Below, piece by piece: positions 27,193 to 47,691 of a stretch of 64,000 bases of DNA (its first letter is position 1; every line of letters begins with the position of its first letter). Under the pieces are notes generated by a model that saw only the letters and a program-made list of their open reading frames with translations, was not told where the DNA came from and ran no database searches. Source of the stretch: Candidatus Zixiibacteriota bacterium (GTDB taxonomy: Bacteria > Zixibacteria > MSB-5A5 > GN15 > FEB-12); contig JAGNLV010000006.1 in NCBI GenBank assembly GCA_017999435.1, positions 62,001-126,000 on the forward strand. Direction: 5' to 3'. A program made the position numbers and the translations under genes.

Positions 27193-27723
27193 TCACCTCC
27201 CCTTGGCAAAGCTTAGAATGATCCCCAAAACGAACGACCAGAGCGCCGCCAGGCCGATCTGGTACTCGGTCGGCAACGAAAAGGTCAGCGTGTGAGCCGG
27301 GATCCAGAACCACAGGAGCGTCCACCACGCGGTGGTTAGCCCGGTCATGTCCCAGCGGCGGAGGATGAGATTGTCCTCGAGCCGGTGGAAGAACATCATC
27401 TGCGGCCCGAAAAGGAGGTTGGTGAGCACGGAGACGGCGAACGCCCAGCCGAGCCCGGCGCCGCACGCCGCGGGCAGAAAATGATGGTCCAGCAGGGCCG
27501 CCGTAAATCCCTTCATCCCCGTGAACCCGTACTTGATGACAATGCCGAGCACTGCCCAGGCCGGGACTTTGGCGAGCGTTTCCCACCACGTTCCGGGGAG
27601 GGCGGGGCGGCCTCTCCGGATGCTGACCGAGACGATTTCACCAAGCGTGCCCAGCAGGGCAAACTGCAGGGCGGCCGAGAGCAGCGGGCGGGCCGTGACC
27701 CAGGCGACGTACGAATCCATCAT
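27193..27723 (-). CDS. Four-helix membrane protein, possibly Mpv17/PMP22-like
   Basis: A 176-aa integral membrane protein with about four hydrophobic segments. No certain family. The pattern around AWWTLLWFWIPAHTLTFSLP, then a W about 14 residues later, recalls the C-terminal signature of the Mpv17/PMP22 family (W...WP.Q..NF..VP...R...W..YLS), and TNLLFGPQMMFFHRLED fits the preceding helix. I treat that as a suggestion only. TTTGGAG precedes ATG 27723. It is transcribed with the GNAT gene 3 bp downstream. Confidence 0.65.
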   Translation of the reverse strand: MMDSYVAWVTARPLLSAALQFALLGTLGEIVSVSIRRGRPALPGTWWETLAKVPAWAVLGIVIKYGFTGMKGFTAALLDHHFLPAACGAGLGWAFAVSVLTNLLFGPQMMFFHRLEDNLILRRWDMTGLTTAWWTLLWFWIPAHTLTFSLPTEYQIGLAALWSFVLGIILSFAKGR

Positions 27724-43182: not shown

Positions 43183-43215
43183 AAAAAAGGCGGGTTGCCC
43201 GAAAGCCGCCCGCCT
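43183..43215 (-). terminator. Terminator of the HesB-like gene
   Basis: AGGCGGG / CCCGCCT stem (43188-43194, 43209-43215); read on the minus strand it is followed by TTTTTT (43183-43188). It may also stop the convergent PrsW-like transcript. Confidence 0.65.
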
Positions 43216-43243
43216 CGTGATTTCTGTCTGAAGATCGGCCGTG

Positions 43244-43579
43244 TCAGCCGCAGGAAGAACATCCCCCCGAACTCTCACCGCAGTTGGCGCTGCCGACGCG
43301 GAGCATAAACCCCTGCCGTCCCGGCCCCTCGTTGATGTAGTCTATGTGAATGTCTCCGTAATTCCTGATAAAGTTGTTCAGGCCGGGATCAATATAGGCG
43401 GTCACGCCGTTCGATTCGAGCTTATCCAATCCATCCGTTGACTCATCCAGAGCCAGTCCCAAATTGGGACCGCTTCAGCCGACGCCGGCGAAGGTGACGA
43501 TGAGGCTTTTGCCTTTGGCATGGTCGGAATCAAGAACCTTGCGCAGTTCCGTTCCGGCGGCATCTGAGACCTCGAACAT
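43244..43579 (-). CDS. HesB/IscA-like protein, probable selenoprotein (in-frame UGA at codon 35)
   Basis: Reading ATG 43579 to TGA 43244 gives 111 residues if the TGA at 43475-43477 (codon 35) is read through. Before it: MFEVSDAAGTELRKVLDS and SLIVTFAGVG; after it: SGPNLGLALDES, GVTAYIDPGLN and a Cys-rich end (NCGESSGGCSSCG). The two halves are one continuous IscA/HesB domain. The UGA falls where E. coli IscA has Cys35. HesB-like selenoproteins with G-x-G-U-x-G-P are a known family. Fe-S assembly or redox roles fit. GTGAGG lies 9 nt upstream of the start. The alternative, a nonsense mutation, is less likely since the downstream part is intact and keeps its terminator. Sec machinery is not in this window. 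Confidence 0.85.
43440..43458 (-). promoter_or_regulatory. Weak candidate bacterial SECIS hairpin
   Basis: Downstream of the UGA, GACT / AGTC closes an 11-nt loop beginning GG, 21 nt after the UGA. This fits general bacterial SECIS spacing and a G at the loop start, but the stem is only 4 bp. A tighter hairpin (GTCCCA/TGGGAC) sits closer to the UGA, with a 3-nt loop. Confidence 0.35.
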
Positions 43580-43843: not shown

Positions 43844-45115
43844 ATGATAGAACATATCTGCATTTTTGAGGACGGGCATTTTCGGGACTTCTATCCGCTC
43901 ACGCTGACCCGTCCGGTCTGCCTCATGCGGGCCGGCATCTTCCCGCAGTACGAGCGGATCCGCCGCCGGCTGGAGGCTCAGGCCGTGTCGCTGCTGTGCC
44001 GCGACCAGATTGCCCCGCTGGTGGCCGAACAGACGCCCAGACATCCCGTGAACATCATCAAGCGCGGCGACAGCGACCTGCTGTTCGTCAACGGTGGCAT
44101 CCGCGATTTCGGCGACCTGCCGACCATGCTGGCCGATGACCGCCATACCCGCGCGTTTGAATCGGAGGGCCGGGTGGCGGCCGTGCTCCTGAAAGCGGAT
44201 ACGCTCAGGGCGCTCCCGCCGGTGGCCGCCCACGACGACTACATCCGCTTCCTGCTCGCCGAGAACGAGAACATCCCGCGCCACACGACCACTGCGACCC
44301 TCTACCGCGGCGCGTGGGAGTTCGTCGAGGACATCGAGACGGCCGTGACGGCCGACTTCCGCGCGCTCGAACCCGAATTCAGCGCGCCGCAGCAGGTGCG
44401 AGTCCACGACGGCGCCTACTTCGTCAACGAGAACGACGTTTTTCTCGGCGATGGCGTGCGGGTGCTGCCGGGGGCGGTGATCGACGCCTCGAAGGGGCCG
44501 GTATATATCGGCGCCAACAGCGCCGTGGAGCCCCACGCCGCGGTCGCCGGGCCATGCTATATCGGACCGAACTCGACCGTGCTGGCCGGAAAAATCACCG
44601 CCTCCTCGATCGGCCACACCTGCCGGGTCGGGGGCGAGGTGGAGGAGTCGGTTTTCCAGGCCTATGTGAACAAGTACCACGCCGGTTTTATCGGCCACAG
44701 CTATGTCGGGCAGTGGGTGAATTTCGGGGCGCTGACCACCAACTCGGACCTGAAGAACAACTACTCGACCATCCGCGTCACGGTCAACGGAACCTCGGTC
44801 GATACCGGCGCGATCAAGGTGGGGTCGTTCATCGGCGACCACACGAAATTCGGGATCGGGACGCTTTTGACGACGGGAATTGCAGTCGGAGTGTGCTGCA
44901 ATATCTTCGGCGGGACCCTGGTTGCCGATAAAGAGGTAGCGTCGTTCCGCTGGGGATCCGGCGGGGCGTGGTCGCCCCACCGGTTCGACAAAGCGCTGGA
45001 GACGGCGCGGCGGACGACGGAGCGGCGCCACGTCAGCCTCTCCGACCGGGAGGCGGCGCTGCTGCAGGCCATTGCCGACGAGACGCTGGGCGATGCCGGC
45101 GTGCTGCCGCTGTGA
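43844..45115 (+). CDS. GlmU-like sugar nucleotidyltransferase/acyltransferase (TIGR03991-like)
   Basis: A 423-aa protein with the layout of the 'alternative GlmU' family. It has a short divergent N-terminal nucleotidyltransferase-like part (ICIFEDGHFRDFYPLTLTRP) and a C-terminal left-handed beta-helix with hexapeptide turns (VYIGANSAVEPHAAVAGPCY, FIGHSYVGQWVNFGALTTNS). The LbH part contains NSDLKNNYSTIRV, typical of GlmU-type acetyl- or nucleotidyltransferases. A canonical GlmU N-terminus (LAAGxGTRM) is absent, so the reaction is uncertain; UDP-sugar supply is a reasonable inference from the adjacent galT and glgA. Confidence 0.85.
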   Translation: MIEHICIFEDGHFRDFYPLTLTRPVCLMRAGIFPQYERIRRRLEAQAVSLLCRDQIAPLVAEQTPRHPVNIIKRGDSDLLFVNGGIRDFGDLPTMLADDRHTRAFESEGRVAAVLLKADTLRALPPVAAHDDYIRFLLAENENIPRHTTTATLYRGAWEFVEDIETAVTADFRALEPEFSAPQQVRVHDGAYFVNENDVFLGDGVRVLPGAVIDASKGPVYIGANSAVEPHAAVAGPCYIGPNSTVLAGKITASSIGHTCRVGGEVEESVFQAYVNKYHAGFIGHSYVGQWVNFGALTTNSDLKNNYSTIRVTVNGTSVDTGAIKVGSFIGDHTKFGIGTLLTTGIAVGVCCNIFGGTLVADKEVASFRWGSGGAWSPHRFDKALETARRTTERRHVSLSDREAALLQAIADETLGDAGVLPL

Positions 45116-45181
45116 GGACGAGACGGCCGAACGGACAGAGGGGCCGAAGGTAACGGAAGACCACAAAGGGAGTGATGCCGT

Positions 45182-46228
45182 ATGCCCGAATTGCGTAAAG
45201 ACCCGGTGATCGGTCGCTGGGTGATCATTTCGACCGAGCGGGGGAAACGCCCGAGTTCGTTCCAGTCGGTCTCCAAACGGGGACCGGCGCGGCTGTGCCC
45301 GTTCTGCCCCGGGGCGGAGAGCAACACCCCGCGTGAGATTCTTGCCTACCGCGATCCGGGCACCGAGCCGAACAAGCCCGGCTGGTCGCTCCGCATTTTC
45401 CCCAACAAGTACCCCGCCCTCGTCATCGAGGGAAACCTGACCCGCGAGCCGCACGGGGTCTACGACAAGATGCAGGGGATCGGCGCCCACGAGGTGATCG
45501 TCGAGACGGCCGACCACGCCCGCGACATGGACGGGATGAGCGAGAAGGAACTCCGCGACGTGTTCTGGGCCTACCGGGAGCGCATGATCGACCTCGAGCG
45601 CGACCGCCGTTTCCGCTACATCCTCGTGTTTAAGAACCACGGCCAGGCCGCCGGCGCCTCGCTCGAGCACTCCCACAGCCAGCTCATCGCCACCCCGATT
45701 GTCCCCAAGAAAGTCCAGGAGGAGATCGAGGGGAGCCGCCGCTACTACGAATTCAAGGAGCGCTGCGTGTTCTGCGACATCGTCCGCCAGGAAATCATGG
45801 ACCAGGAACGCATCGTGACCGACTTCGACTCGTTCATCACGATGCAGCCGTTCGCGGCCCGCTTCCCCTTTGAAACCTGGCTGCTGCCGAAGACGCACCA
45901 GTCGAGTTACCTGGAGATGAGCGATTCCGACTTCTGGATTCTGGCCCGGACATTCAAGGATATTCTCACCCGTTTGAAAGTGGCGCTCAACGACCCGCCG
46001 TTCAATTTCGTGCTCCACACGCGGCCGATGTCGCCGGAGCACCACACCTACTACCACTGGCATTTCGAGATTATCCCCAAGCTGACCCGGGTGGCCGGGT
46101 TCGAGTGGGGCTCGGGGTTCTACATCAATCCGACCACCCCCGAGCAGGCGGCCGCCTACCTCCGCCAGATCGACGTCACCGCGCCGCCCGCGGCGGCGCC
46201 GTCCGAAATCAGCGAGAAGGAAGTATAG
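45182..46228 (+). CDS. galT: Galactose-1-phosphate uridylyltransferase
   Basis: A 348-aa Leloir pathway enzyme exchanging UMP between UDP-glucose and galactose-1-phosphate. LRKDPVIGRWVIISTERGKR is the N-terminus; CPFCPGAES and CVFCDIVRQE are zinc-site regions. GAHEVIVETADHARDM comes next, and the catalytic triplet region is LEHSHSQLIATPI (H-x-H-x-Q). The C-terminal half is FNFVLHTRPMSPEHHTYYHWH, one residue longer than I can print in one run, so I cite FNFVLHTRP and YYHWHFEIIPKL. No galK or galE is adjacent. It ends 2 nt before glgA, so they are co-transcribed. Confidence 0.94.
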   Translation: MPELRKDPVIGRWVIISTERGKRPSSFQSVSKRGPARLCPFCPGAESNTPREILAYRDPGTEPNKPGWSLRIFPNKYPALVIEGNLTREPHGVYDKMQGIGAHEVIVETADHARDMDGMSEKELRDVFWAYRERMIDLERDRRFRYILVFKNHGQAAGASLEHSHSQLIATPIVPKKVQEEIEGSRRYYEFKERCVFCDIVRQEIMDQERIVTDFDSFITMQPFAARFPFETWLLPKTHQSSYLEMSDSDFWILARTFKDILTRLKVALNDPPFNFVLHTRPMSPEHHTYYHWHFEIIPKLTRVAGFEWGSGFYINPTTPEQAAAYLRQIDVTAPPAAAPSEISEKEV

Positions 46229-46230
46229 AC

Positions 46231-47691
46231 ATGAAGGTCTGTTTGGTGGGACCGGAGATGGTTCCGTTCGCGAAGACGGGAGGACTTGGCGACGTGGTGG
46301 GGGCGCTGCCCAAAGCCCTCGGGCGCCTCGGCCACGACGTCACCGTCTTCATGCCGCTCTACCGCGAGCTCGACTTCGGCGTCCACCGCGTCCACGCGGT
46401 CGACCTCGCTGTGTCCGTTCCCGTGGCCGGGTCCGTGCAAACCGTCTCGCTCCGCGCCGTGCGCCAGAAAAAGCACAACGTCGAAATCTACTTCATCGGC
46501 AACCGCCAGTATTTCGACCGCGACGGGTTCTACGTCGATCCCGCGACCGGCAAGGACCACGCCGACAACGACGAACGCTTCATCTTCTTCAATCGCGCCG
46601 TGCTCGAAGTGCTCAAAGCGCTCAACCTCCGGCCCCACGTGATCAACGTCAATGACTGGCAGACGGCACTCATCCCGGTCTACCTGAGGACCCTCGGCGC
46701 GGCCGACCCGTTTTTCGCCGGCGTCAAGACCGTCCTCACCATTCACAACCTCGCCTACCAGGGGAGCTTCCCCCGGGAGCGGTTTGCCAGGCTGGAGCTG
46801 CCCGGGGCGCTCTTCGCCCCGGCGGCGGGGCCGTTCGAATTCTACGGCCAGGTCAATTTCCTCAAAGCCGGTATCACCTTCGCCGACAAGATCACGACCG
46901 TCTCGAAGCAGTACGCCCGGGAGATCCAGACCGCCGAATTCGGCGCCGGTCTCGAAGGGGTGCTGGCCGGGCGGGCCGCCGACCTCGTGGGCATTCAAAA
47001 CGGCGTCGACTACACCGTCTGGTCCCCCTCGCGCGACAAGAAAATCCACTACACCTATCACCTGGCCAACCTCTCCGGCAAGCGGATGAACAAGGTCGAG
47101 CTGCTCAACCGGGCGGGGTTGCCGATCCGCGACAGCGCGCCGCTCATCGGCATCATCTCGCGCCTGGTCGACCAGAAGGGATTCGATCTCATCGCCGAGG
47201 CGGCCGACCGGATCTTCGCCATGAACCTGCAGATGATTATCCTGGGGACGGGTGAAACCCGCTACCACGATTTTCTCACCCGTTTGCAGGCGGCCTACCG
47301 CGACAAGGTCCGGGCGTACCTCATGTTCGACGACACCCTCGCCCACCAGATCGAGGCCGCGGCCGACATCTTCCTCATGCCCTCGCGGTTCGAGCCGAGC
47401 GGCCTGAACCAGTTGTATTCGCTCAAGTACGGAACGGTCCCGATCGTGCGGCGGGTGGGCGGCCTGGCCGATACGGTGACCGATTACGACCCGGCGACCG
47501 GCGAGGGGACCGGCTTTGTGTTCGACGACTACACCGCCGAGGCGCTCACGGGGGCCATCGCCCGCGCCGTGTTGCTGTTCGAACGCAAGCGCGTCTGGAC
47601 CAAAGTGATGAAACGCGGCATGGCCGAGGATTACTCGTGGCAACACACGGCCGAGGAGTACGCCCGGCTCTATCGAGACCTGGTCTCGTGA
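46231..47691 (+). CDS. glgA: Glycogen (starch) synthase
   Basis: A 486-aa GT5 glycosyltransferase that extends alpha-1,4-glucan from ADP- or UDP-glucose. FAKTGGLGDVVGALPKAL contains the K-T-G-G-L sugar-nucleotide motif. NVNDWQTALIPVYLR, LTIHNLAYQGSFPRE and GIQNGVDYTVWSPSRD are GlgA signatures, and PSRFEPSGLNQLYSLKYGTV is the C-terminal catalytic site. ATG 46231 has AAGGAAG upstream and lies 2 nt after the galT stop. With glgP at the other end of the window it completes a synthesis and degradation pair; glgB and glgC are not in the window. Confidence 0.95.
   Translation: MKVCLVGPEMVPFAKTGGLGDVVGALPKALGRLGHDVTVFMPLYRELDFGVHRVHAVDLAVSVPVAGSVQTVSLRAVRQKKHNVEIYFIGNRQYFDRDGFYVDPATGKDHADNDERFIFFNRAVLEVLKALNLRPHVINVNDWQTALIPVYLRTLGAADPFFAGVKTVLTIHNLAYQGSFPRERFARLELPGALFAPAAGPFEFYGQVNFLKAGITFADKITTVSKQYAREIQTAEFGAGLEGVLAGRAADLVGIQNGVDYTVWSPSRDKKIHYTYHLANLSGKRMNKVELLNRAGLPIRDSAPLIGIISRLVDQKGFDLIAEAADRIFAMNLQMIILGTGETRYHDFLTRLQAAYRDKVRAYLMFDDTLAHQIEAAADIFLMPSRFEPSGLNQLYSLKYGTVPIVRRVGGLADTVTDYDPATGEGTGFVFDDYTAEALTGAIARAVLLFERKRVWTKVMKRGMAEDYSWQHTAEEYARLYRDLVS

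Follow-up and report, generated by a model that had tools for sequence, protein, structure and literature searches.

In the window, by which we mean the whole 64,000-nt stretch of Zixiibacteriota DNA analysed here, we identified a gene for a HesB/IscA-like protein with an in-frame UGA at codon 35 (UGA35), which, judging from the sequence, is almost certainly read as selenocysteine (Sec) by SelB and Sec-tRNA, guided by a hairpin in the coding sequence directly downstream. The gene is a divergent branch of an already known kind of HesB-like selenoprotein. Its features are collected in Table 1. With the TGA read as U, the translation of positions 43579-43244 (minus strand) is GSANCGESSGGCSSCG. 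This is the only internal TGA in the open reading frame, which also uses TGA as its terminal stop. The original prediction had the start, the ribosome-binding site and the downstream terminator intact, and so we found them: an ATG with a GAGG-type site upstream, and a stable hairpin with a T run beyond the gene. A simple terminator scan did not pick up the latter, probably because the loops it permits are 3-8 nt only.

Table 1. Position of the HesB/IscA-like gene and of its sequence elements in the window.
Feature	Position	Strand	Remarks
HesB/IscA-like gene, predicted selenoprotein	43244..43579	(-)	111 residues, Sec at codon 35
In-frame UGA, codon 35, predicted selenocysteine in GVGUSGP	43475..43477	(-)	Same codon in 82 homologues
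Second hairpin GGUCCCA-AUU-UGGGACU, between UGA and SECIS hairpin	43455..43471	(-)	Less conserved
Bacterial SECIS hairpin GGCUC-UGGAU-GAGUC	43440..43454	(-)	Loop starts ~26 nt after UGA
Stretch coding C100 to C110 (C100, C107, C110), C-terminal Cys cluster	43250..43282	(-)	From translation and alignment
Intrinsic terminator hairpin and T run	~43183..43216	(-)	MFE -20 kcal/mol, z -3.4

A single-sequence search of the genome contigs returned no relatives of the HesB-like gene; they were found there with an alignment-based search. A search covering 194 genomes (the window's own included) gave matches in 93 of these. After extraction, the window gene and 82 homologues (n = 83) carry TGA at the identical codon, nearly always within the motif G-x-G-U-x-G-P, and its presence there is thus no accident. 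As proposed, one uninterrupted IscA/HesB-like domain is encoded across the TGA. The nearest named relatives belong to Candidatus Zixibacteria (Zixiibacteriota), with identities of 61% and down. One genome (G008) harbours two Sec-containing copies on separate contigs (L052 and L053). A conventional ORF caller reports at this locus just a 72-residue frame 3′ of UGA35, as one would have it if the UGA were a true stop, be it in a decayed gene or between separate frames of 34 and 72 residues (the latter starting from TTG at 43462). We consider this highly improbable: the TGA recurs at the same position in 82 homologues, the conserved domain continues on either side of it, the codons of the hairpin described below are fixed and the full Sec machinery is present in the genome.

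The terminal codon was considered as a second Sec codon and rejected, since TAA or TAG stands there in many relatives. Across the family set (n = 94), the terminal stops are a mixture of TGA (38), TAA (29) and TAG (27), so that the final TGA is an ordinary stop.

The original prediction had suggested looking for a SECIS just after the UGA. The hairpin that follows UGA35 (loop UGGAU; MFE -16.2) satisfies, at positions 43454-43440, the published model of the bacterial SECIS, which specifies loop size, distance, energy and a G within the first two positions of the loop (PMC13188914). All five stem pairs are intact in 79 of the 83 sequences, where some 7.5% would be expected upon shuffling synonymous codons within each gene. 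Codon usage at the hairpin is nearly invariant: Leu44 is specified by CTG in 82 of 83 genes (background elsewhere in the same genes, 0.31), Glu46 by GAG in 81 of 83 (background, 0.33) and Ala43 by GCT in 63 of 64 (background, 0.18). As the intact stems and the fixed codons far exceed the levels in synonymous shuffles and in the background, the hairpin is not explained by protein conservation alone. Selection at the nucleotide level is also apparent in the post-UGA folding energy, with a mean z of -1.12 ± 0.10 relative to synonymous shuffles; control windows lie between about 0 and -0.4, and six Cys homologues at 0.09. Named relatives from Geobacter, Desulfobulbales, Spirochaetes, Krumholzibacteria, Neomarinimicrobiota and Clostridia share the hairpin sequence. 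Taken together, these findings are close to decisive for Sec insertion at UGA35. The 83 sequences, with their near-invariant hairpin, constitute a clean data set for the rules of bacterial SECIS elements. The second hairpin, which lies ahead of the SECIS hairpin (Table 1), is perfect in the window and in near relatives and variable elsewhere.

The genome from which the window derives (3.5 Mb, 98.2% complete) encodes Sec, as had been claimed, and all four components that were to be looked for are present. The selA and selB genes directly adjoin in this order, as an operon; a tRNA-Sec with anticodon tca was found; and the selD gene (L106 1501-2424) scores above the curated cut-off and, with its own in-frame TGA (motif GUASK), is itself a selenoprotein gene. 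The Sec-decoding trait that goes with HesB-like selenoproteins is, in other words, extant in this genome. Co-occurrence of SelB and the HesB-like gene across relatives was uninformative, since almost all members of the class have SelB; the HesB-positive genomes that lack a SelB match are mostly fragmented assemblies. If the organism had reassigned UGA to one of the ordinary amino acids, an in-frame TGA would likewise be seen, the one observation that speaks for such a reassignment, but its probability is negligible: TGA serves as the terminal stop here and in 38 of the 94 family members (TAA or TAG in the others), the tRNA-Sec with the tca anticodon is present, and a scan of the window detected a single other TGA with coding-like flanks, which reads as two adjacent genes. 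This TGA, at 27195, was rejected as a further Sec codon, as it is best read as the place where one gene finishes and its neighbour begins.

The best NCBIfam family matches of the protein are the two HesB-like selenoprotein models, NF038090 (IscA_HesB_Se; E-value 2.4e-15, 56.7 bits against a curated cut-off of 85) and TIGR01911 (HesB_rel_seleno; 35.8 bits against 66.35), and it is not filed in either because it scores under both cut-offs. The match with TIGR00049, for the IscA/SufA/ErpA carriers, is also below its cut-off (E-value 9.8e-8; 32.2 bits against 58.8), and no Pfam family matched at the threshold applied. In the 49-sequence subfamily alignment, where C is written for Sec and Cys paralogues make up a few rows, all members match both HesB-like selenoprotein models with E-values of 0.001 or better, and neither the Sec/Cys column nor C107 varies. 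The AlphaFold model (mean pLDDT 84) has E. coli IscA (1r94) as its closest PDB match, followed by SufA and related A-type proteins: the predicted fold is that of IscA. Together with the E-values for NF038090 and TIGR00049, this identifies a HesB/A-type domain. In a profile alignment with A-type proteins of solved structure, the U35 column coincides with the GGCSG Cys, placing the UGA, within U-x-G-P, at the first A-type Cys, the cluster-binding position of IscA that had been proposed for it. The three C-terminal Cys residues noticed earlier within a stretch of 11 residues are equally there (Table 1); in the predicted structure, the tail that carries them is disordered, with pLDDT under 50.

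Lists of selenoproteins have included HesB-like members since 2005-2006 (PMC1088965, PMC1242214, PMC1794560), and these appear with the motif UxGP, under TIGR01911, in a 2026 review (PMC13188914); the assertion that U-x-G-P proteins of this kind exist in other bacteria thus agrees with literature from 2005 onwards. With that family, the window protein shares the A-type/HesB domain, the U-x-G-P motif whose Sec takes the position of the Cys, the bacterial SECIS right after the UGA and the Cys-rich C-terminal end. It differs by its scores below the TIGR01911 and NF038090 cut-offs, and nearly all Zixibacterial sequences branch separately from those of other phyla in a tree of 118 sequences. A literature search for Zixibacteria together with selenoprotein turned up a single paper, on marine Deltaproteobacteria. 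Candidatus Zixibacteria can now be added to the groups with HesB-like selenoproteins, and the gene is widespread and divergent there.

As to function, metal or Fe-S binding, or redox chemistry, may be inferred at U35 and the C-terminal Cys residues by analogy. Our preferred reading, which we hold with a little better than even confidence as a whole, is that of a HesB-like A-type selenoprotein in which Sec35 and the C-terminal Cys residues form the iron or Fe-S site of an accessory protein. In it, UGA35 is almost certainly decoded as Sec via SelB, Sec-tRNA and the adjacent downstream hairpin; Sec35 would replace the cluster-binding Cys35 of IscA and, with C100, C107 and C110, would provide a binding site for iron or an Fe-S cluster. 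Since an ordinary IscA-type protein, in which GGCSG and CGCG are present, is encoded elsewhere in the window's genome, as are SufB/SufD, the selenoprotein would be accessory, acting beside the IscA-type protein and the SUF system. The IscA/ErpA/SufA carriers (E. coli IscA, 1r94; HI1723, 2apn) have the same fold and the same position of the first cluster-binding Cys; the window protein differs from them in having Sec for Cys, the U-x-G-P motif and another C-terminal Cys pattern, and in that its genome has a separate ordinary member.

The HesB-like gene stands alone, with a divergent GlmU-like gene on one side and, on the other, a converging gene whose product, a membrane protein, resembles PrsW on visual inspection. 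The former encodes a nucleotidyltransferase and is followed by galT and a glycogen synthase gene (glgA; 43844-47691 for the three). Relatives of the GlmU-like, galT and glycogen synthase genes occur beside the HesB-like gene in 20, 12 and 9 related loci, respectively, and this partly kept gene order points to vertical inheritance. As far as synteny goes, the conserved neighbours in the related loci include no Fe-S assembly partner.

The absence of Fe-S genes near the HesB-like gene is one of the reasons for giving serious weight, if somewhat short of even, to the alternative of a selenoprotein that does not belong to the Fe-S proteins, and whose Sec/Cys site serves redox chemistry on thiols or peroxides or binds some other metal or metalloid. 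Redox enzymes are common among Sec proteins (PMC13188914), an ordinary A-type protein and SUF are already at hand in the genome, and the subfamily, in the Zixibacterial genomes searched, retains Sec without Cys-only replacement, in keeping with a chemistry that requires selenium. Against it, the Sec site has no CxxU or UxxC pair, and in its domain and in the placement of U35 the protein agrees with cluster-binding A-type proteins. The preferred Fe-S reading, in turn, has to be weighed against the lone position of the gene, the disorder of the C-terminal Cys tail in the model and the HesB-like selenoprotein of Methanococcus maripaludis (MMJJ_08070), reportedly identified by mutagenesis and 75Se labelling, whose disruption mutant still fixed nitrogen (PMC11097638). 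Going by its description, MMJJ_08070 is HesB-like with Sec, as is the window protein, but it is archaeal and has another SECIS type (PMC13188914).

Cys-only forms occur in other phyla (e.g., L145, L149 and L175), and neighbouring Sec and Cys copies were observed at a number of loci (L046, L047-L049, L050, L051, L143, L151, L171 and L185); Acidaminobacter hydrogenoformans is one species with such a pair. In the tree of 118 sequences, which rests on few columns and gives a rough count of pairs, about six well-supported groups are made up of Sec/Cys pairs: G065, genus g29, G155, G153, Acidaminobacter and one Thermodesulfobacteriota/Myxococcota pair. In the Cys copies, the fixed hairpin codons are altered and the hairpin is lost. 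The tree suggests some six separate duplications, in which Sec would have changed to Cys along with the SECIS codons of the Cys copy. One could speculate, although we deem it unlikely, that selenium performs a function at the A-type site of which sulfur is incapable, and that the Sec and Cys copies form a pair with divided roles (e.g., a switch responding to selenium level, or a mixed dimer); the idea arises because a phylum-level branch keeps Sec without Cys-only replacement while Cys copies repeatedly appear only beside a Sec copy. These recurrent adjacent pairs offer a natural comparison for the role of HesB-like selenoproteins. In one genome (G028; L048), the Sec and Cys copies are located ~5 kb apart.
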